From a virus, in IMG/VR virus record IMGVR_UViG_3300035670_000700, positions 1 through 36,261 of that record: DNA of 36,261 bases; one strand, 5' to 3'. How positions within the stretch are numbered: the stretch's first letter is position 1; each line of letters begins with the position of its first letter. The notes under the pieces were generated by a model that saw nothing but the letters and a program-made list of their open reading frames with translations, was not told the DNA's origin and did not search any database. The position numbers and the translations under genes were made by a program. This document shows positions 4,234 to 36,261 of the stretch, piece by piece.

Positions 4234-4797
4234 CTAAATAAGTGAGATTCTAGGTGCTTGGGGTAAAGCACTAGCAATCTGTACGTCTTGAATACCGCCA
4301 CGCTGAATCTGTCCAGCAGGTGCAAATTGTGCTTGAGGCTGCTGCATCATTTGTTGTGCAGACTGCAAACCCATTTGAGTTAAATTAGGATTACGTTGTG
4401 CATAATTGCCAATTTGGTCAAGAAATCCCGGAGGAGTTGCTAATGAAGATGGAACCATTCCAGTAGTCGGGCCACCACCTAGCATTGGAGCTTGGTAAAT
4501 TGAACTACCTATCCCTTTGCTGAAATCAATCGCACTTGGAGCCAACAAATTTGTGGACTGACCAGCCGCAATAGAGTTAACGCCACCTGCATTAGCAAAC
4601 ATAGTATTTGCCGCATTAGAAGCACCTGCACCAGTTAATCCGCTACCAGCGCCAGCGGTTAAACCACCAGCACCCATCAATGTAGCACCGCCAAATCCAC
4701 CAGCAGCCCCAAGCAAAGCACCCTTAAGAGGATCTTTAGAGTTGGACATAGCTCCAATAGAGCCGCCAACAATAGCCATAGTTACCGGATCACCCAT
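4234..4797 (-). CDS. Gly/Ala-rich small virion protein (putative ejection protein)
   Basis: A 187-residue protein. The first ~70 residues are a Gly/Ala-rich hydrophobic region (motifs SIGAMSNSKDP, GALLGAAGGFGGA) of the kind seen in phage proteins that insert into or pass through membranes; the remainder is Gln/Pro/Gly-rich. Its ATG (4797-4795) shares one base with the TAA of the upstream gene, and its strong AAGGAGG site is made by the last codons of that gene, so the two are translationally coupled. No enzymatic motif is visible. The membrane or ejection role is inferred from composition and neighbours. Confidence 0.55.
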   Translation of the reverse strand: MGDPVTMAIVGGSIGAMSNSKDPLKGALLGAAGGFGGATLMGAGGLTAGAGSGLTGAGASNAANTMFANAGGVNSIAAGQSTNLLAPSAIDFSKGIGSSIYQAPMLGGGPTTGMVPSSLATPPGFLDQIGNYAQRNPNLTQMGLQSAQQMMQQPQAQFAPAGQIQRGGIQDVQIASALPQAPRISLI

Positions 4798-22534: not shown

Positions 22535-22601
22535 TGCGCTTTCTCCAAAGTGACTTCTTATAATTATCCTGCTGCGCTTCCTCGCGGGTTAGTGTGATCA
22601 T
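22494..22601 (-). CDS. Truncated copy of the LTREEAQQ cassette protein
   Basis: A 35-residue ORF starting MITLTREEAQQ, identical over these residues with the two full-length cassette proteins at 22598-22861 and 28984-29547, then diverging into an unrelated Lys/Arg-rich tail that ends 41 bases inside the Ref-like gene. Its ATG overlaps the stop of the previous cassette (ATGA). It is probably a recombination remnant, where the conserved gene start was joined to the region ahead of the nuclease gene; it may or may not be a useful peptide. Confidence 0.55.
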   Translation of the reverse strand: MITLTREEAQQDNYKKSLWRKRSDKRREEIPVKNS

Positions 22602-22861
22602 GTGTTCTTCTCCTTTAGCTTGGCTTCGATGGCGTTTGCTATTTCTTGGAATGAGTACCAGCCCATAATGTTCTGCATTTCGTACCAAGTCTTGTGCTTT
22701 TCCTCATCCGTCAGCCCCTGCCATTCGCGCTGTGGTGCGCTAAGTCGGGCGCTGAGGGTTTCGATAACCGGGATAAGCGCAGGCCAATGTGGCACTCCAC
22801 TGCATGACTTCAACGCATGAAACACTTGCTGCGCTTCCTCGCGGGTTAGTGTGATGGTCAT
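22598..22861 (-). CDS. Cassette protein family 1, copy A
   Basis: An 87-residue protein from ATG 22861 (a 101-residue extension upstream overlaps the preceding gene and lacks a good site). It starts TITLTREEAQQV and ends EAIEAKLKEKNT-like, exactly as in the 187-residue protein at 28984-29547, and the middle EWQGLTDEEK block is also shared, but the stretches between are different. The final codons encode AAAGGAGAAGAACAC, the ribosome-binding site of the next gene, whose ATG overlaps its TGA. Function unknown; probably an early accessory protein. Confidence 0.65.
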   Translation of the reverse strand: MTITLTREEAQQVFHALKSCSGVPHWPALIPVIETLSARLSAPQREWQGLTDEEKHKTWYEMQNIMGWYSFQEIANAIEAKLKEKNT

Positions 22862-22868
22862 TACGGCC

Positions 22869-23069
22869 TCACAGATCTGGATCAATCCAAAACCCTGCGC
22901 CAAAGATCAGCGGGATTGGATCGTAGTCATCACCCTCGGCATCTTGAATCTCTTTTTGCAAGTTCATACATTTCTCATGCAAATCCATCACTAAGGCGTA
23001 GACTTTTTGGCCTTCTTCTTGATATTGGTTGTGCAGTTTCTTTAATTCGTTGATTTCTTTTGGTGTCAT
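22869..23069 (-). CDS. Small helical acidic protein
   Basis: A 66-residue protein: a charged helix (TPKEINELKKLHNQYQEEGQKVYALVMDLHEKC) and an acidic-hydrophobic C-terminus (DDYDPIPLIFGAGFWIDPDL). The ATG overlaps the TGA of the TPGPW-type gene (ATGA) and uses the ribosome-binding site encoded by that gene's ATGEQQ tail. It is unlike the flanking cassettes in sequence. Function not recognised. Confidence 0.5.
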   Translation of the reverse strand: MTPKEINELKKLHNQYQEEGQKVYALVMDLHEKCMNLQKEIQDAEGDDYDPIPLIFGAGFWIDPDL

Positions 23070-23317
23070 TGTTGTTCTCCTGTAGCTTTGGCGATAATTG
23101 AGCGTATGTATTCATGCGTTTGCAGACCAAGCCCACCCCGTATGTATAACATCATCAATGCCCCCAATAATTCAGGTGCGGCAGCAATTAAAAGCGCGTC
23201 GGCTTTTTTTGGCTCAGTGTCAAATCCAGCTACAAGCGTGCCATTTGCAGAATTGATCTCTCCTACATACCCTTCTTCCCACCAATACCGCCATGGCCCG
23301 GGCGTGAATTCACTCAT
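23066..23317 (-). CDS. TPGPW-motif small phage protein
   Basis: An 83-residue protein from ATG 23317; the frame extends to GTG 23326. It has SEFTPGPWRYWWEEGYVGEI, NGTLVAGFDTEPKKADALLIAAAPELLGALMML, the well-known small phage protein pattern in which an (F/L)TPGPW start is followed by A(D/N)A-LIAAAPELLEAL. Its function is not known. It ends with KATGEQQ, the same tail as the family 2 cassettes, which encodes the AGGAGAACAAC ribosome-binding site of the next gene. Confidence 0.65.
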   Translation of the reverse strand: MSEFTPGPWRYWWEEGYVGEINSANGTLVAGFDTEPKKADALLIAAAPELLGALMMLYIRGGLGLQTHEYIRSIIAKATGEQQ

Positions 23318-23513
23318 TGTCGCCACCTTTTTCTTTGTGAGTGTTTATCTGCGTTGCGCCCCGACTGCCAGCAGGCCAGATGTATTGATTCTGGTTGATC
23401 GTCATGTCGTAACCAAACCGTAGCGCGTTGACTAGCTGTGGTGTCATCGCTGTAAACTGTTTAGGGTTCGGCTCGTCTGGGCAAATAGTGATTGTGTAAG
23501 GTAACTTAGCCAT
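23310..23513 (-). CDS. Small unknown protein
   Basis: A 67-residue protein, AKLPYTITICPDEPNPKQFTAM in its first part then a mixed helix/strand, with KEKGGDNE at the C-terminus. ATG 23513 lies eight bases inside the preceding cassette gene and uses the AGGAGAAAACA site encoded by its ATGENNG tail. Its own tail (KEKGG) supplies an AAAGGTGG site for the TPGPW gene. Not recognised as any family. Confidence 0.45.
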   Translation of the reverse strand: MAKLPYTITICPDEPNPKQFTAMTPQLVNALRFGYDMTINQNQYIWPAGSRGATQINTHKEKGGDNE

Positions 23514-23787
23514 TGTTTTCTCCTGTAGCTTTGATTAGTGCGGCTTTACATCTTTCGATATAGGGCTGGTCATCACTCAACGCCGCTTTTACAGCCTCCA
23601 CCAACTCAGCATTCACTCTCTCCAACTTCTCAATACGGCGCAGTCGATCTCCAGCCATTTTGTGTTGCCAGTCATGAGCCTCATGCAAGCGGCGTAGTTC
23701 GGCGGCGGCTTTTAAATCGTTAGCGTCGCATCCAAAAAGATCAAGCAGTTCAGCCAGCCGCAGGGCTTCGGGTTGTTTGTCAGTCAT
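23506..23787 (-). CDS. Cassette protein family 2, copy A
   Basis: A 93-residue, helical, probably coiled-coil protein. It shares MTDKQPEALRLAE, AAELRRLHE and NAELVEA blocks with the 77-residue protein at 29676-29909, and ends ATGENNG. The DNA for the first 13 codons is identical to that of copy B over 41 bases. Probably an accessory early protein; function unknown. The C-terminal ATGE codons provide the next gene's ribosome-binding site. Confidence 0.65.
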   Translation of the reverse strand: MTDKQPEALRLAELLDLFGCDANDLKAAAELRRLHEAHDWQHKMAGDRLRRIEKLERVNAELVEAVKAALSDDQPYIERCKAALIKATGENNG

Positions 23788-23788
23788 A

Positions 23789-23977
23789 TTAGTATCCTAG
23801 TATTTTTTTGACCTCACCTAAGAACTTAGGATCAGTCGGTCTATTTGCTCGGTAAATGCTCGGCGTAGTCCGGTTATAGCAACCAGCACAACGCCAGCCC
23901 CTAAGACTTCCTTCCTTACGATAGCCACCTTCCTCCGGCTTAGATTGCTGGCAGCTATTGCAAAAACGCATCTTCAT
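23789..23977 (-). CDS. Small zinc-ribbon protein
   Basis: A 62-residue protein with two CxxC pairs: RFCNSCQQSKPEEG and GWRCAGCYNR, spaced as in a zinc ribbon. A C-terminal helix RPTDPKFLGEVKKILGY follows. A tight zinc-binding fold such as this often binds DNA, RNA or a protein partner. The ATG overlaps the preceding stop by ATGA; a second Met two codons later (23971) is also possible. Function unknown. Confidence 0.6.
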   Translation of the reverse strand: MKMRFCNSCQQSKPEEGGYRKEGSLRGWRCAGCYNRTTPSIYRANRPTDPKFLGEVKKILGY

Positions 23978-24156
23978 TTATTCTTTCCTTGGAGTTTCTT
24001 CTGAACATCCAGAACCAGCGCTTTAATCTGGTCTGGATAGTAATACTTGAGATTACCGAAATGCTTTAAGCCGAGTTGTTCTACCTCATGCTCGGTTAAA
24101 TTCCGCAGCTTGATGGGCAATTCGCTGGTCTCGAATAATTGCCTTTGCCGGGTCAT
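23974..24156 (-). CDS. Small unknown helical protein
   Basis: A 60-residue protein (RQRQLFETSELPIKLRNLTEHEVEQLGLKHFGN, LKYYYPDQIKALVLDVQKKLQ). It overlaps the upstream zinc-ribbon gene by 71 bases, which is long, and has no strong ribosome-binding site, so it may start further on; but its composition is protein-like. It is coupled to the next gene by ATGA. Not recognised. Confidence 0.45.
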   Translation of the reverse strand: MTRQRQLFETSELPIKLRNLTEHEVEQLGLKHFGNLKYYYPDQIKALVLDVQKKLQGKNK

Positions 24157-24658: not shown

Positions 24659-24890
24659 ATTCGCAATCATATTTGTTTGGACAATAAGACAGGACGAGGG
24701 GTTGATATTTAACACCTTTCCCACACTGGCTAATCCCTCTCGGGGCTACATTCATCTTCCAAGGTGACCGTATCGTGGCCCAACCGTTCATCAACCGTTC
24801 TACCTTGTTTATGCAAGTACCTGTAGCAAGTCTGCTGCGCCGTCCTGTCAATAAAGCGCACTCGGTTTTCTTGGCAGCAACCCCGAACAT
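24636..24890 (-). CDS. Doubtful ORF downstream of structured RNA A
   Basis: An 84-codon frame with an ATG that has AGGA eight bases upstream. It has a basic first half (KKTECALLTGRRSRLATGTC) and Cys residues but no known pattern. Its end overlaps the next gene start (24658) by 23 bases. If it is real, it is the first ORF after the RNA element at 24930-25031 and could be the one controlled by it. If not, 24659-24929 is a non-coding leader. Confidence 0.35.
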   Translation of the reverse strand: MFGVAAKKTECALLTGRRSRLATGTCINKVERLMNGWATIRSPWKMNVAPRGISQCGKGVKYQPLVLSYCPNKYDCEYETNKSE

Positions 24891-24929
24891 GGGTTCATTC
24901 CTAACGCGACCAGTACGGTCTTAGAAAGC

Positions 24930-25031
24930 AAAAAGCCCTTGAGGCTTGGCTCTCCGTGTGTCAGGCACGTTCCCACTTAAGGGATGAGAACCAAAGCTCA
25001 AGGGCTTCAGTTGTTTGTCTAAGCCTGACAC
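24930..25031 (-). ncRNA. Structured RNA A: pseudoknot-capable stem ending in a U-tract
   Basis: In leftward RNA: a 9-base leader (25031-25023) complementary to 24966-24958; 15-base linker; a 22-base outer stem (25007-24986 with 24954-24933), 19 Watson-Crick pairs, two G-U and one mismatch; two internal hairpins (24984-24981/24974-24971 and 24969-24966/24958-24955); then a U-run (24934-24930). Two G-U pairs become mismatches on the other strand, so it acts leftward. It follows the gene ending at 25053 and could be an intrinsic terminator or an attenuator. See the twin at 28418-28519. Confidence 0.65.
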
Positions 25032-25052
25032 AAAGACGAGATAATTATAAAC

Positions 25053-25749: not shown

Positions 25750-25967
25750 CGCCAATCTCCCTCTATCCCTCGGTTTCCTTTAGACCACTGTTCCTTGCAA
25801 TCCTTTGCTAGTTTCTCAGCGGTAATATCACCACGATGCTTACGAACTTTTGTCAGAAACTCCATAGCTTTTTCTCTGTCTTCAGCTCTCCAGCGCAACA
25901 CTTGCCGGACTTCACATCGATGCCTTTCTTCCTCAACTGCATGAATTTTCAATGAAACTTCATCCAC
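25746..25967 (-). CDS. Small conserved phage protein next to helicase
   Basis: A 73-residue protein with GTG start at 25967 overlapping the helicase stop by eight bases, AAGGGCAAG upstream. It has EEERHRCEVRQVLRWRAEDREKAMEFLTKVRKHRGDITAEKLAKDCKEQWSKGNRGIEGDWR: the RHRCEVR-x-x-L and C-EQW-KGNRG-GDWR ends mark a short phage protein family often found beside VRR-NUC nuclease genes. Function unknown. The longer frame upstream lies within the helicase gene and is not used. Confidence 0.6.
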   Translation of the reverse strand: MDEVSLKIHAVEEERHRCEVRQVLRWRAEDREKAMEFLTKVRKHRGDITAEKLAKDCKEQWSKGNRGIEGDWR

Positions 25968-26961
25968 TAAACTTGCCCTTATTATCAAAGTCCATAGGCG
26001 GAGATCCCGGATTCTCCACAAACTGCTGACTGCTGGCGTGATAAAACAACCCGTACCACTCCTGATACTCTCCGTTCCTCTGCTTTTCACACATCAAGTA
26101 AGCATCCGGCTGCAACTCATCTACCTGCTCTCCACGGTTCCTTGAGTTCTCTTTCTTCTTGTTACGCCACATTAGAAAAACGTTATCCACCTGATCCGAG
26201 ATAGAACCCGATCCTTTCAAGTCATTCTTATTCGGCTGGATTTCATCGTTAGCCTGTTTGCGGATATGGTGGACTAAGTGAATATGAACATTATGATCCC
26301 GAGCCAATGCTGTCAATTCGTCAACAAAATTCTTCTGACCGTTAAAGTCATCCTCACCCTTTACGCACTTCATCAGGCTATCGATCACGATATGCTGCAC
26401 ACCCAACTCTATGGCGCAATACCGGCACATAGCAATAACCTTCTCAGGCGAAGTTGATCCCTGCTGGTCATAAAGCCACATCTGCTCAGATAAGAACTTG
26501 TCCATGCGTGATAACAAATTTGTTATGTATGCCTCCCGGTCACTCGTCAACGGATCGTCTACGAACTCCCCTGCAAACTGACGCAGCATCCTCTCTAACG
26601 TTCTCTCAGGCTTCATCTCAAAGCTGGCAATACAAACCTTTTGTTGCTGCTTCACAAGATGCAAGGCTATCTGACCAGTAATCAACGACTTACCACCACC
26701 GTTACCACCAGCGTAAACAGTAACCTCTCCCAGACGATAAGCAAACTCACCCTGTGTCTTAGTCCAAGGCATGACAATCTGCTTATTCTTAACGCCAGAA
26801 AGATAGCTCTCCTTAATCGTATCCAGCCAGTCTGTCGCAGACTTTACCTGTAAAGTCACATCGTTATGCTTCAGGTACTTCTCAACGTCAATCTGCTCGG
26901 ACTTAACGATCCGTAACTTTCTTGCCTCGTCTAGGTCTATTGCACGTTCTTCAAGGCTCAT
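25960..26961 (-). CDS. Replicative DnaB-like helicase
   Basis: A 333-residue RecA-fold helicase without the DnaB N-terminal domain. Walker A is GGNGGGKS at 85-92, followed by LALHL-type helix, ASFEMKPERTLERMLRQ (typical DnaB H1a), VIDSLMKCVKG (Walker B), HIHLVHHIRKQ (H3) and KGSGSISDQVDNVFLMWRNK (H4/arginine finger region). It unwinds DNA at the phage fork. ATG 26961 is inside the previous gene's end; the frame extends 12 codons further but without need. Encoded after the primase-like domain. Confidence 0.88.
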   Translation of the reverse strand: MSLEERAIDLDEARKLRIVKSEQIDVEKYLKHNDVTLQVKSATDWLDTIKESYLSGVKNKQIVMPWTKTQGEFAYRLGEVTVYAGGNGGGKSLITGQIALHLVKQQQKVCIASFEMKPERTLERMLRQFAGEFVDDPLTSDREAYITNLLSRMDKFLSEQMWLYDQQGSTSPEKVIAMCRYCAIELGVQHIVIDSLMKCVKGEDDFNGQKNFVDELTALARDHNVHIHLVHHIRKQANDEIQPNKNDLKGSGSISDQVDNVFLMWRNKKKENSRNRGEQVDELQPDAYLMCEKQRNGEYQEWYGLFYHASSQQFVENPGSPPMDFDNKGKFSG

Positions 26962-27151
26962 TTTTATGCCCTCTAAATTCAGAAAACTCAGCATCAATCG
27001 CAGTTCTCCAAACTATAAAATTTTGCTTTTGCCCATGCTTTTCCATTAAATCATTAACGTCTTTTAAAATTTCATCTAGTTTTATTGGTGCAAAACTTGC
27101 CACCCTTATACTAAATTGTATTTCTTGCGTAACTGCATTAACGCTGCTCAT
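26951..27151 (-). CDS. Small unknown protein between primase and helicase
   Basis: A 66-residue protein (AVTQEIQFSIRVASFAPIKLDEILKDVNDLMEKHGQKQNFIVWRT). Ribosome-binding site TAGGAG overlaps the stop of the primase-domain gene, and its own end overlaps the helicase start by 11 bases. It is likely to belong to the replication operon, but no family is recognised. Confidence 0.5.
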   Translation of the reverse strand: MSSVNAVTQEIQFSIRVASFAPIKLDEILKDVNDLMEKHGQKQNFIVWRTAIDAEFSEFRGHKNEP

Positions 27152-27160
27152 GTTTTGCTC

Positions 27161-27589
27161 CTAGTTAATATAATTAGCTGCTTCGTTAATCCGCTCAAAA
27201 GCCTTTTTAAGCCGTTTTTTATCAGTGTCTGATACCTGCCTACCCTCGGACAAATCAAACGCCGCTATGGACGTAATAAGTGCCTCAAAATGGATTATTC
27301 GGAGTAGGTCTGTCGCATAAAATGGTCTACGCTCAGGTTTTTGTCGCTGATTGTCGCTTGTGTAGCCTAGTTTGTTTTCTTTAGGAAACAAGTCACCGAT
27401 GTCCATACCTACTGCCGAAACAACCTCGTAAGCGGTACAACCAGCAAAGCACTTGAGCAAGATTCGCTCGTCAGGCAGTAACGTTATGGCAAGACTAGGG
27501 CTTTTATCGCCATGAGCAGGACAACAAGCAGTCCATCGTCCTTTGGAACCCTTAACTTTCTCTAAGCGGTTGAGTAGATTACCAATCAT
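27161..27589 (-). CDS. CHC2 zinc-binding primase domain, stand-alone
   Basis: A 142-residue protein from ATG 27589, with a perfect AGGAGG site six bases upstream encoded by the previous gene's tail. Residues ~10-75 are a CHC2-type primase zinc finger: ACCPAHGDKSPSLAI, ILLKCFAGCTAYEVVSAVGMDIGDLFP. No TOPRIM catalytic domain follows; the rest is helical (HFEALITSIAAFDLSEGRQVSDTDKKRLKKAF). It may recognise priming sites and work with a separate polymerase domain, or recruit host primase. Confidence 0.8.
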   Translation of the reverse strand: MIGNLLNRLEKVKGSKGRWTACCPAHGDKSPSLAITLLPDERILLKCFAGCTAYEVVSAVGMDIGDLFPKENKLGYTSDNQRQKPERRPFYATDLLRIIHFEALITSIAAFDLSEGRQVSDTDKKRLKKAFERINEAANYIN

Positions 27590-28212
27590 TTGATCCTCCT
27601 GTCGTTCATCCACCAGTCTTTTTGCTGCGCTGCTTGCTGAACCTTTGGCTCATAAATATTTTGCCAGTCATTAACAATGCTATTTTGCAATACGATGGAT
27701 GTATCAATTCCCTTAGATTTCATATTTTCTAATTTGGAAATAATTATCTTCATTGCTCGGTCAGTCATAGGTTTGCCTATCTTTTTCCTCATAGCAATAA
27801 AATCTTTCCAATCGTTAACGTCAAGCCAATCAGGAATTTCTACTGCTACAGACTTCTTCTCTCTCTCTGTCTCTCTCTCTCCCTCTCTCTCTGGGATAGC
27901 AGGTTGATAGCAAGGTGCTAGCATTGTGCTAGCGTCAACAAAAAAACCATTATCAATCAATGGCTTAAGTCCAAACTCAATATCTTTGATAGCAATGTGC
28001 AAGCGAAATGCTAGCTCATCGCTAGCGGCATTAAATTCACCGTCTTTTGACTCACTTGCTAGCAGCCAAAGCAGTGGTGCTAGCGCCTTGCTAGCGATAG
28101 GAAGGCTTGCAAAAATTCTATCATTTAGGATATCTCGATGCAGCTTGATCCAAGGTGGACAACGATCCCGATAATGTTGGAACTTATCCCAATTCTTAGG
28201 CTTTAGGATCAT
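27586..28212 (-). CDS. Replication-initiator-like protein with N-terminal winged helix
   Basis: A 208-residue protein from ATG 28212. Residues ~15-90 (RCPPWIKLHRDILNDRIFASLPIASKALAPLLWLLASE, EFGLKPLIDNGFF) match the phage replisome-organiser winged helix. A GA-repeat-encoded linker rich in Glu/Arg (EREGERETERE) follows, then a C-terminal domain (DWKDFIAMRKKIGKPMTDRAMKIIISKLENM...NSIVNDWQNIYEP), typical of helicase-loader partners. The order initiator, primase domain, helicase fits a self-contained replication module. The last codons (DRRIK) encode the AGGAGG site for the primase gene. Confidence 0.7.
   Translation of the reverse strand: MILKPKNWDKFQHYRDRCPPWIKLHRDILNDRIFASLPIASKALAPLLWLLASESKDGEFNAASDELAFRLHIAIKDIEFGLKPLIDNGFFVDASTMLAPCYQPAIPEREGERETEREKKSVAVEIPDWLDVNDWKDFIAMRKKIGKPMTDRAMKIIISKLENMKSKGIDTSIVLQNSIVNDWQNIYEPKVQQAAQQKDWWMNDRRIK
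27853..27892. repeat. 40-base TC/GA tract within initiator gene
   Basis: A nearly perfect polypyrimidine TC repeat with a single G (27869) runs for 40 bases, coding the Glu/Arg-rich linker on the leftward strand. It is a simple-sequence repeat that could slip by two bases and shift the reading frame. It also forms a polypurine stretch in the mRNA. Confidence 0.75.
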
Positions 28213-28405
28213 CTTCGACCCCCATATTCCAAGCAGCATCTATTGCATCTTTATTGGTAAAAAACCAATTTTCAATTGCCCTAAATTGTTCTGGCGATAA
28301 ATAACAACGAATAACATCGCTGTACACTTCATTTCGTTGCTCTATATAAATTCTTCCATTTGTTTGATACCCAAAATAAACGGCTTCTGTAGGCTTTAAC
28401 TTCAT
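28196..28405 (-). CDS. Small protein directly after structured RNA B
   Basis: A 69-residue protein from ATG 28405; an ATG at 28417 is also in frame. The sequence KLKPTEAVYFGYQTNGRIYIEQRNEVYSDVIRCYLSPEQFRAIENWFF is not a family that I know. The first ATG follows the U-tract of RNA B with no gap, and GGAAAA before 28405 is the only ribosome-binding site, so expression depends on read-through of RNA B. Its end overlaps the initiator gene start by 17 bases. Confidence 0.6.
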   Translation of the reverse strand: MKLKPTEAVYFGYQTNGRIYIEQRNEVYSDVIRCYLSPEQFRAIENWFFTNKDAIDAAWNMGVEDDPKA

Positions 28406-28417
28406 AGCTTTTTCCAT

Positions 28418-28519
28418 AAAAAAAGCCCTAGGAGAGACTCTCACCGCATAACGGTGTTGGCAGACTGGCGGGTAACCAGCAGAGTCCCTTCTAGGGCTTA
28501 CCCTTAAACGCGCTGCCAA
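28418..28519 (-). ncRNA. Structured RNA B: pseudoknot-capable stem ending in a U-tract
   Basis: In leftward RNA: a 7-base leader (28519-28513) complementary to 28463-28457; a 13-base linker; a 19-base outer stem (28499-28481 with 28441-28423), 17 Watson-Crick and one G-U; inner hairpins 28479-28476/28468-28465 and 28456-28452/28446-28442; then seven U (28424-28418). The same plan and the same 102-base length as RNA A at 24930. The U-run meets the start of the next ORF. It may be an attenuator or a stand-alone small RNA with its own terminator. Confidence 0.65.
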
Positions 28520-28530
28520 GCACGTAATTA

Positions 28531-28629
28531 CTATACTTTAACCCCACGCAACTGGCAAGTTCTACAAACCAAGGATTCCTTAAACTGAATGCGACTCCTA
28601 GCCTTCTTACATCCTGGACAAGTTTGCAT
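28531..28629 (-). CDS. 32-residue zinc-ribbon miniprotein
   Basis: A 32-codon ORF: MQTCPGCKKARSRI, then LVCRTCQLRG; two CxxC pairs at a spacing that fits a small zinc ribbon. It overlaps the preceding gene by 23 bases and has a weak CGGA site. Conserved Cys positions in so short a frame are unlikely by chance but not proof. It could be a zinc-binding adaptor; function unknown. Confidence 0.5.
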   Translation of the reverse strand: MQTCPGCKKARSRIQFKESLVCRTCQLRGVKV

Positions 28630-28987
28630 TCCGAAATAAAATGTCTTGGTAGGGCTGCTTGATGGCGCTTGTACAGGTGAAGAAGGATCGTTGCTCAATT
28701 GGTTGACCTCTTGGCGATACTTTCGGAAGGACAGATTTTAACGGAGTAAATGGAACAGGCTCCCTTGGCGGAACAATGTTCTCACCAGTGGCTAGTTTCT
28801 CAATGTTGTTAGTGGGGAAGTAATAGTTACCGCCCTTACGAAGTTTCCCATAGCTAACAAGGATATTCAGTTCCTCTTTCAGCTCGGCACTGTTTTCGTA
28901 CTCAAATAGCCCATAGTTAATGATGAGCATATTGGCTGTCATTCCACCGTTAAGTGTGAAGGCTCTTACAATTGCGTCTCTGTTCAT
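28607..28987 (-). CDS. Winged-helix-like small protein
   Basis: A 126-residue protein. Residues 1-60 (RDAIVRAFTLNGGMTANMLIINYGL, LKEELNILVSYGKLRKGGNYYF) follow the helix-turn-helix plus wing pattern of a small DNA-binding domain; the rest is Pro/Arg-rich linker. The ATG overlaps the family 1 cassette stop (ATGA) and uses its KLKEKNT-encoded ribosome-binding site. A regulator is possible. Confidence 0.5.
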   Translation of the reverse strand: MNRDAIVRAFTLNGGMTANMLIINYGLFEYENSAELKEELNILVSYGKLRKGGNYYFPTNNIEKLATGENIVPPREPVPFTPLKSVLPKVSPRGQPIEQRSFFTCTSAIKQPYQDILFRNANLSRM

Positions 28988-29547
28988 GTGTTCTTCTCCT
29001 TTAGCTTGGCTTCGATGGCCTCAAGCAACGGCTGATCGTGCCAGTTTTCTGCATCTGCTTTTTCGTATATTGCTTTCTTTTCCTCATCCGTCAGCCCCTG
29101 CCATTCGCGCTCACTGCATTTAACGCAGTACAGCGCCCAACCGTCCGATGATTTCTTGCCGCATTCGGCGCAACCTTCTTCGCGCTGTGGTGGGGCGGTG
29201 TAAAGCGGTTTGCACTTGCCCTTGTGTTCATGCGGAAACTCGTTGCCTGTCCACGTAAACCCTTCCTCATCCATCCACGCCACCGGCTCCGGTTCAGGCT
29301 GCGCTTCGTAATTCGCCCTCACAAGCACTACGCTTGCGGCATGGTCTGGCAAAAACTCAACGCGCCATAGGTCGCCCTTAATCACCACATCACGATGCTC
29401 CGGTTCAGGTGCGCTAAGTCGGGCGCGGAGGGTTTCGATTAGCAATATGCACCTGTTGGCAACCCTAAAATCTTCAGTGCTGTCCCGATACTCGTCCAAC
29501 GCATCCAGCACCTGCTGCGCTTCCTCGCGGGTTAGTGTGATAGTCAT
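28984..29547 (-). CDS. Cassette protein family 1, copy B
   Basis: A 187-residue protein. It shares the start MTITLTREEAQQV, the LSAP block, EWQGLTDEEKK and the ending EAIEAKLKEKNT with copy A (22598-22861), but holds a ~100-residue insertion: a stretch with PEPVAWMDEEGFTWTGNEFP and a four-Cys zinc ribbon (CAECGKKS...LYCVKC). The mosaic layout (identical ends, different middle) suggests exchange through the conserved DNA blocks. Function unknown; the zinc ribbon hints at nucleic-acid or protein binding. Confidence 0.65.
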   Translation of the reverse strand: MTITLTREEAQQVLDALDEYRDSTEDFRVANRCILLIETLRARLSAPEPEHRDVVIKGDLWRVEFLPDHAASVVLVRANYEAQPEPEPVAWMDEEGFTWTGNEFPHEHKGKCKPLYTAPPQREEGCAECGKKSSDGWALYCVKCSEREWQGLTDEEKKAIYEKADAENWHDQPLLEAIEAKLKEKNT

Positions 29548-29556
29548 GTTGATTCC

Positions 29557-29679
29557 TTAAAGAATGAGTAATATGGCAATGACAATAAGCCAGCCAGAAT
29601 GCTCTATATCAACCGTATAACCCCACATACCTATTGCGCAAAAACCTACTGAAGCAATCGCTTTACCAATGTATTTCAT
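29557..29679 (-). CDS. 40-residue membrane miniprotein
   Basis: A 40-codon ORF with two hydrophobic segments (IGKAIASVGFCAIGMWGY, GWLIVIAILLIL) that suggest one or two membrane helices. It starts at the ATG in an ATGA overlap with the family 2 cassette (copy B), using its ATGEQQ-encoded site, and ends nine bases before the family 1 cassette, whose AAGGAATCAAC site overlaps its TAA. Such linkage supports it as a real gene. Function unknown. Confidence 0.55.
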   Translation of the reverse strand: MKYIGKAIASVGFCAIGMWGYTVDIEHSGWLIVIAILLIL

Positions 29680-29909
29680 TGTTGTTCTCCTGTAGCATAA
29701 GCATAAGCGGCTGCTGCAATGTTTCTTGCGCCTTTAGGATTGTCATGTGCAATGCAAAGCCCTATTTTTTCCAACGCAGTAACCAACTCAGCATTCACCT
29801 CATGCAAGCGGCGTAGTTCGGCGGCGTATGTTGGCTCCATCCTCATAATCCTAGATAGTCGTTCATCATGTTCAGCCAGCCGCAGGGCTTCGGGTTGTTT
29901 GTCAGTCAT
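29676..29909 (-). CDS. Cassette protein family 2, copy B
   Basis: A 77-residue helical protein sharing MTDKQPEALRLAE, YAAELRRLHE and NAELV with copy A (23506-23787), and ending YATGEQQ. The first 41 bases are identical at DNA level with copy A. It overlaps the upstream gene by ATGA. Together with the following membrane miniprotein and family 1 copy B it forms a shorter version of the block at 22.6-23.8 kb. Function unknown. Confidence 0.65.
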   Translation of the reverse strand: MTDKQPEALRLAEHDERLSRIMRMEPTYAAELRRLHEVNAELVTALEKIGLCIAHDNPKGARNIAAAAYAYATGEQQ

Positions 29910-30088
29910 AGTTTATTAGCCCTTATCAGTCTGCACTTCTGGCGGTCAGCATGAGTAAAGTCAGGACTAATCTCAGCTACCGAGCAGTTTAATTGCGCTT
30001 TAGGTTTAGCATCCACCGCCAATACAGCCATGTAAATAGATAACATTGCTATAACAGCAACATATACATAAATTGCAAGTTCTTTCAT
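29906..30088 (-). CDS. Small membrane-anchored protein
   Basis: A 60-residue protein from ATG 30088, which has an ideal GGAGGAAAT site; a longer frame to 30118 has no support. An N-terminal membrane helix (AIYVYVAVIAMLSIYMAVLAV) leads to a short Cys-containing tail (NCSVAEISPDFTHADRQKCRLIR), with the two cysteines outside the membrane. That SVAEISPDFT...C tail is common in phage early proteins. It is the first gene of the leftward transcript from the 30.1 kb promoter. Confidence 0.65.
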   Translation of the reverse strand: MKELAIYVYVAVIAMLSIYMAVLAVDAKPKAQLNCSVAEISPDFTHADRQKCRLIRANKL

Positions 30089-36059: not shown

Positions 36060-36241
36060 TTAGGCAGCGTCCCATTACCAGCCATCCAGAACATGATACC
36101 CAATGCTCCAGCACCTACAATCCAGAATATTTTTTTAACGACAGAACGACCGACTTCCTCGTAAATCTTCTTGAAAGCCACTTCCGCAGCACGTTCCGCA
36201 ATAGCTTCAATCTGGTCATCAGTTAAAGGTAGCTTTTCCAT
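36056..36241 (-). CDS. Small membrane protein at the circular junction
   Basis: A 61-residue protein: charged helix (TDDQIEAIAERAAEVAFKKIYEEVGRSVVKK) and one membrane helix (IFWIVGAGALGIMFWMAG). It is coupled to the next gene by ATGA. The first 23 codons repeat at 1-71 because of the terminal overlap; on the circle it directly follows the collar fibre. It may take part in lysis; function not known. Confidence 0.6.
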   Translation of the reverse strand: MEKLPLTDDQIEAIAERAAEVAFKKIYEEVGRSVVKKIFWIVGAGALGIMFWMAGNGTLPK

Positions 36242-36261
36242 GGTTAGCTTTTCATGATATA
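36171..36261. repeat. Right copy of 91-bp terminal direct repeat
   Basis: Exact copy of 1-91. See the left copy; together they show that the contig is circular or terminally redundant. Confidence 0.95.

Follow-up and report, generated by a model that had tools for sequence, protein, structure and literature searches.

We identified, on the minus strand of a freshwater phage contig and directly upstream of its replication operon, a compact transcription unit (copy B) in which a sigma70-like promoter is followed by a leader hairpin, a 19-bp terminator-type hairpin, and then the operon itself. Judged from its predicted folds, element B is a terminator/antiterminator switch. We consider it fairly probable that it is an autoregulated antisense attenuator, in which the terminated RNA of ~100 nt is itself the antisense agent and captures the leaders of later transcripts. 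An earlier note on this DNA had proposed attenuation of the replication operon, and this proposal is well supported by the terminator-like hairpin, the lambda-O-like gene found directly downstream in many relatives, and the competing leader/interior pairing. Its overall interpretation held in part; the dedicated promoter and the second pairing were overlooked, as was a likely use in trans resembling that of the P4 CI and P1 C4 RNAs.

Results

Copy B combines a promoter, a leader, and a terminator-type hairpin

The window (the whole 36,261-nt stretch of DNA analyzed here) is a virus contig with identical 91-base ends (1–91 and 36171–36261) and is therefore probably complete and either circular or terminally redundant. 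The hairpin layout described earlier at 28519..28418 (−), with a leader UUGGCAG, a linker, an AAGCCCU...AGGGCUU stem, and a U7 run, is present in all its parts and lies beyond chance. The minus-strand RNA has a minimum free energy of −50.7 kcal/mol (z = −4.81) that 0 of 200 shuffles equaled, and the pattern AAGCCCT-N(40–70)-AGGGCTT occurs twice in the window (24933–25007 and 28423–28499) compared with 0 occurrences in 100 shuffles. The 19-bp stem (28499–28481 with 28441–28423) encloses two small hairpins, and the leader is complementary to this interior at two sites: the 7 bp already recognized (UUGGCAG/CUGCCAA) and a further 5–6 bp (GGGUAA/UUACCC). The element starts further upstream than 28519, with its promoter and leader hairpin (Table 1), and transcription is predicted to begin at ~28523–28525 (−). 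A promoter scoring at least 8/12 was found in 73 of 88 B relatives, with its −10 end 10–14 nt before the loop, compared with 6.7% at control positions.

Downstream of the element, and in the same direction, lie a 69-aa ORF, a lambda-O-like protein, a primase-like zinc-finger ORF, and a DnaB-like helicase. The ATG at 28417 does adjoin the U-run, as had been claimed for the start of the small gene; this ATG, however, aligns with the ribosome-binding segment of relatives (TTTATTGGAAAAAGCTATG), and the true start codon is probably 28405. The presumed start codon is 17–19 nt past the hairpin in most relatives. Elsewhere in the window, the small-ORF cassettes at 22554–24156 and 28981–29910 have near-identical blocks of 29–51 nt in common (families D3 and D6–D10), which suggests duplication or recombination of early small genes.

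Table 1. Positions of copy B, its flanking genes, and copy A in the window
Feature	Position	Strand	Remarks
sigma70-like promoter TTGCCA-17-TATAGT	28530..28558	−	counterpart in 73 of 88 B relatives
Leader hairpin ACGUGC-UUGGCA-GCGCGU	28508..28525	−	loop UUGGCA; five stem pairs, each changed on both sides
Leader element 1 (b1) UUGGCAG	28513..28519	−	pairs with 28463–28457; 100% paired in 89 sequences
Leader element 2 (a1) GGGUAA	28498..28503	−	pairs with 28475–28470; directly adjoins the long stem and overlaps its base
Terminator-like stem, 5' arm AAGCCCUAGAAGGGACUCU	28481..28499	−	helix 4; 12/19 pairs with compensatory changes
Inner hairpin 1 CUGG-UUACCCG-CCAG	28465..28479	−	loop presents element 2' (a2, 28475–28470); helix 5 and fold
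Element 1' (b2) CUGCCAA	28457..28463	−	unpaired between inner hairpins 1 and 2; antisense to b1
Inner hairpin 2 CACCG-UUAUG-CGGUG	28442..28456	−	fold; length and sequence variable among relatives
Terminator-like stem, 3' arm	28423..28441	−	covariation
U-run	28418..28424	−	completes an intrinsic-terminator shape; T-run conserved in relatives
Ribosome-binding segment GGAAAAAGC	between U-run and ATG 28405	−	read from sequence
Small ORF (69 aa)	28196..28405	−	downstream of the element; probable start codon 28405; no family found
Replication initiation O-like protein	27586..28239	−	phrog_26426 9e-34, phrog_678 9e-21; first known gene of the putatively controlled operon
DnaB-like helicase	25960..26997	−	PF03796 9.4e-21; operon direction shared
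Copy A	24933..25032	−	leader kissing sequence TGTGTCAGGC (about 25032–25023); hairpin 25007–24933 with matching interior

Relatives conserve the pairing and not the sequence

Searching with the O-like protein returned 80 viral loci and 15 distinct copies of the element upstream of an O-like gene, and pattern scans enlarged the collection to 88 other distinct copies of type B and 43 of type A. The first two viral scans demanded the letters of b1 and b2 and carry that ascertainment; independent of these letters are the 15 protein-anchored B copies, a stem-only scan, element a1, and all A copies, for which the search fixed the hairpin stem only. A second pattern scan of genome contigs gave 64 loci, one of them genuine and the others without a recognized B element, after a first, too strict scan of such contigs had found none. 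The genuine copy, in the isolate genome of Polynucleobacter sp. UK-Kesae-W10 (L232), has a CI-like regulator on one side and O-like/DnaC-like genes on the other. Its surroundings are a prophage region that also contains RecT-like and exonuclease genes, and an integrase lies 17 kb away; a covariance model detected the element in just 1 of 186 Polynucleobacter genomes. Among E. coli genomes, plasmids, and isolated phages, blastn with the B consensus retrieved only one Manatee Spring phage (two records); the plasmid matches to the consensus were rejected as chance. A tRNA/tmRNA search returned nothing, and Rfam, at gathering thresholds and at E ≤ 10, gave chance miRNA-like matches only. The open literature yielded precedents of the P4/C4 type and no description of this element, subscription papers being outside the scope of that search.

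In an alignment of 89 B sequences, 97.8% of 1068 leader/interior cells are paired, with a covariation score of 0.352 compared with 0.168 in shuffled and <0.1 in slid controls, in which only 27–52% of cells pair. The whole B structure is 95.2% paired compared with 83.8% in shuffles. Helix b1/b2 takes the forms TTGGCAG/CTGCCAA, TTGGCGG/CCGCCAA, and TTGACGG/CCGTCAA, and two pairs carry compensatory changes. Helix a1/a2 is paired in 94.8% of cells, and all five counted pairs have changed on both sides; element a1 was absent from every search pattern, yet its 17 variants have matching partners. Together with the ~20 matched sequences of A-type copies described below, this two-site covariation strongly bears out the proposal that pairing rather than sequence is kept. 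In close B pairs, the pairing letters differ at 0.21 per site and the remaining positions at 0.04 (237 pairs, with no phylogenetic correction); the corresponding comparison for A, with 13 pairs only, is weak. Element b1 is nearly invariant in B, which is not what a specificity role for b1 would predict.

The leader pairing and the complete stem are predicted to be mutually exclusive

The elements follow one another in the order b1, a1, 5' arm, a2, b2, 3' arm, so that b1–b2 and a1–a2 are mutually nested and both cross the terminator stem. By this geometry, pairing in cis should rule out the complete stem and vice versa, since a1 adjoins the base of the stem and a2 lies at the opposite end. When prefixes ending before the 3' arm were folded, the antiterminator was predicted in 72 of 88 B members (14–20 with shuffled leaders; the remaining 16 had another minimum free energy fold), and the leader/interior pairing was predicted in 39 of 41 A members. 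Folded at full length, the pairing was found in 0/88 B and 1/41 A members. For copy B of the window, the terminator reaches −50.7 compared with −35.0 for the forced antiterminator. The full terminator always wins thermodynamically, and antitermination would therefore have to be kinetic. Thus, the predictions contain two exclusive covarying structures, one of them a GC-rich stem with a U-run, and their difference between prefix and full-length folds is the mark of an attenuator in which antitermination is kinetic.

Copy A shares the design and little of the sequence

Copy A resembles copy B in its promoter, its leader hairpin, and the match between the leader loop and the interior of its terminator hairpin. 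It differs in having one longer pairing (8–11 nt), another stem sequence, a hypervariable loop, and a structured noncoding RNA after it. The design that had been proposed for both copies is thus common to them, whereas the details diverge: in the window, A pairs over 10 nt rather than 7 and has a U5 run, and the second pairing of B had escaped notice. A recent duplication, as the proposal of a duplicated RNA would imply, is not shown: the B covariance model scores copy A at only 18.3 bits (E about 0.1). The two copies resemble members of a single design that either separated long ago or converged on it. Among A-type copies, the leader loop matches the interior over 8–11 nt in 41 of 43 members, with ~20 different sequences, while noncognate combinations of leader and interior mostly match over 4–6 nt. 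One record (L177) carries two A copies with different kissing cores, and in L333 and L340 the hairpin is identical except for the core.

Several further observations concern copy A and its surroundings. At L341 9102–9181, an A copy has a leader (TGTGCGGGCA) and an interior (TGCCCGACAC) that match only partly, a natural mismatch. Right after copy A of the window, 24677–24922 (−) encodes a structured noncoding RNA of ~245 nt, with compensatory changes in 21 of 40 predicted pairs (15 sequences) and no Rfam match in the window. In L335 the slot after copy A is occupied by Rfam Betaproteobacteria-1 (4654–4771 (−); RF02932, 102.8 bits); A copies precede yet other noncoding-looking sequences in L321, L343, and L378, and ORFs in L248, L381, and the second A of L177. 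Downstream of B, a third sequence type built on the same plan was found (L086 3929–3990, L089 7093–7026, and L119 5029–4963), with stems such as AAGCCGTTACTCATGC and loops such as AGTCGTGT matched within the hairpin.

Discussion

We propose that the constitutive-looking promoter would start a transcript just upstream of the leader hairpin and that, in the nascent RNA, b1 and a1 would pair with b2 and a2 inside the hairpin that follows. This nested structure would sequester the terminator's 5' arm in a loop, favoring read-through into the replication genes. Were b1 and a1 already occupied, the terminator stem would form instead and transcription would stop. The finished hairpin exposes b2 (single-stranded) and a2 (in a loop), and the leader exposes b1 (in a loop) and a1 (single-stranded), which makes use in trans possible: the stopped RNA of ~100 nt could occupy the leaders of later transcripts. 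More phage copies or more phage RNA per cell would then cause more termination, a negative feedback on the replication genes, with immunity against phages of the same specificity as a potential consequence. The sequences themselves show the promoter-like motif, the anatomy, the covariation, and, in silico, the mutually exclusive folds; we infer termination in vivo, capture in trans, and the benefit to the phage (copy control or timing, and superinfection immunity).

The arrangement recalls known antisense systems. P4 CI RNA is described as an antisense RNA whose pairing with seqA and seqC terminates transcription prematurely (PMC4825925). Like the P4 system (CI RNA/seqA; RF01695, RF03163, and isrK, RF01394), the phage element lies in the early leader of a replication operon, presents in its leader a hairpin-loop element and then a single-stranded element, and has a long-stem putative antisense RNA with the complements in a loop and a single strand, in the order b1-a1-a'-b' (in P4, in L182 minus-strand coordinates, leader b1 1168 and a1 1152, and C4 a' 964 and b' 949). 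In P4, however, the antisense RNA (1008–921 of L182) lies ~110 nt past the leader terminator, and a further target covers the downstream ribosome-binding site (b2 916, a2 885), of which we saw no counterpart here; in the phage element, the antisense hairpin would double as the terminator, with target, antisense, and terminator fused in ~100 nt. The C4 RNA of P1 and P7 is transcribed from its target's strand, pairs at two short sites, and blocks icd/ant translation with Rho-dependent polarity. The phage element would likewise specify a same-strand antisense RNA with two short pairing sites; unlike C4, which is among the RNAs listed in PMC2864571, it has an intrinsic terminator in the RNA, and its sequence is unrelated at Rfam thresholds. 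A parallel in plasmids is the antisense attenuation of pIP501, reviewed in PMC4981023. The phage element resembles the pIP501/pT181 type in the steering of a terminator/antiterminator choice in a replication-gene leader, and it differs in that the plasmid antisense RNA comes from the opposite strand, whereas here it would be the terminated sense transcript. In such plasmids, this antisense steering in the leader serves copy control.

Outright membership in the C4 or c4-a1b1 antisense RNA family of P1, P7, and P4 is very improbable. The order and presentation of the elements are identical, and the C4-type layout, a long base stem around a loop and single-stranded elements complementary to two target sites, is there. 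Against this, the inner hairpins are ordered differently, RF01695 has no gathering match in the window and none at E ≤ 10 in 28300–28620, and its cut-off was reached in 0 of 13 carrier records (the P4 positive control scored 74.9 bits); RF03163 and isrK (RF01394) did not match in the leader, and both were detected in P4. Membership is thus refuted at Rfam thresholds. Nor does the window contain a downstream a2/b2 target of the seqC type near the ribosome-binding site; of 87 members, only 6 have the b1 7-mer again in the 150 nt that follow. The TTGGA ribosome-binding segment (54/87) was considered as a second target, and its 4-nt pairing with CCAA is too short to count. A function at the DNA level, as a replication origin or a priming or packaging hairpin, deserves equally little credence: origins often contain inverted repeats, and the element does adjoin the O-like gene, but G-U pairs are tolerated on the minus-strand reading (61/89 at columns 52/112), promoter, U-run, and ribosome-binding site all keep a fixed distance, and copy A has the same design before an RNA unrelated to replication.

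It is also quite unlikely that the hairpin is a constitutive terminator releasing a stand-alone small RNA for other phage or host RNAs, with the leader complementarity shielding it until processing. Its own promoter, the strong stem with a U-run, and an sRNA-sized product would suit such an RNA, whereas the exact two-site covariation in 89 sequences makes the leader its main partner, and the location right before the replication operon is conserved. The only full b1..a1 target on the transcribed strand of the window is the element's own leader (28519), with no other such site, which speaks against a stand-alone RNA and in favor of an attenuator acting solely in cis. In this latter reading, which we regard as unlikely, though less so than the others, polymerase speed, a phage or host protein, or a ligand would set the choice, and the terminated RNA would have no partner. 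Covariation and prefix folding all fit it, and the covariation supports it as well as it does trans capture. It leaves unexplained, however, why change is faster in the pairing letters than in the stem around them and why ~20 orthogonal A sequences and differing paralogs within one genome exist, and loop-to-single-strand kissing in both directions, as seen here, is typical of trans antisense pairs. A cis-only switch would need neither fast change of the pairing letters nor differing cores. The P4-like order and presentation, the faster-changing pairing letters, the cores of L333 and L340, and the differing cores of L177 favor trans action, which we consider likely.

As for the role of an autoregulated antisense attenuator in these phages, the 36 carrier records (22–59 kb) contain one integrase and no Peptidase_S24, resolvase, or ParA-type ATPase, an absence that is suggestive only because the completeness of these records is unreported. 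Either virulence prevails among the carriers, with the RNA serving as a brake or timer that depends on copy number, or RNA-based control lets some of them persist. With temperate markers nearly absent, we rank copy control first and immunity second and make no claim that lysogenic immunity is the chief function. A bolder and tentative idea, which we hold to be possible rather than probable, is that, where phages of freshwater bacteria lack integrase, S24 repressor, and ParA, the A and B attenuators together form an RNA-only system of copy control and superinfection immunity, in which interchangeable kissing sequences would set specificity groups, with B before the replication genes and A before a structured noncoding RNA.

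Few phage regulators are known whose terminated transcript is the antisense agent; the element would extend them by a widespread RNA family, here reduced to ~100 nt. Because the pairing letters vary while the scaffold stays, its natural variants could serve directly as a set of RNA switches that may be orthogonal. They would also offer a direct way to test whether RNA pairing is enough to define groups of immunity or incompatibility, even among phages without the usual lysogeny proteins.
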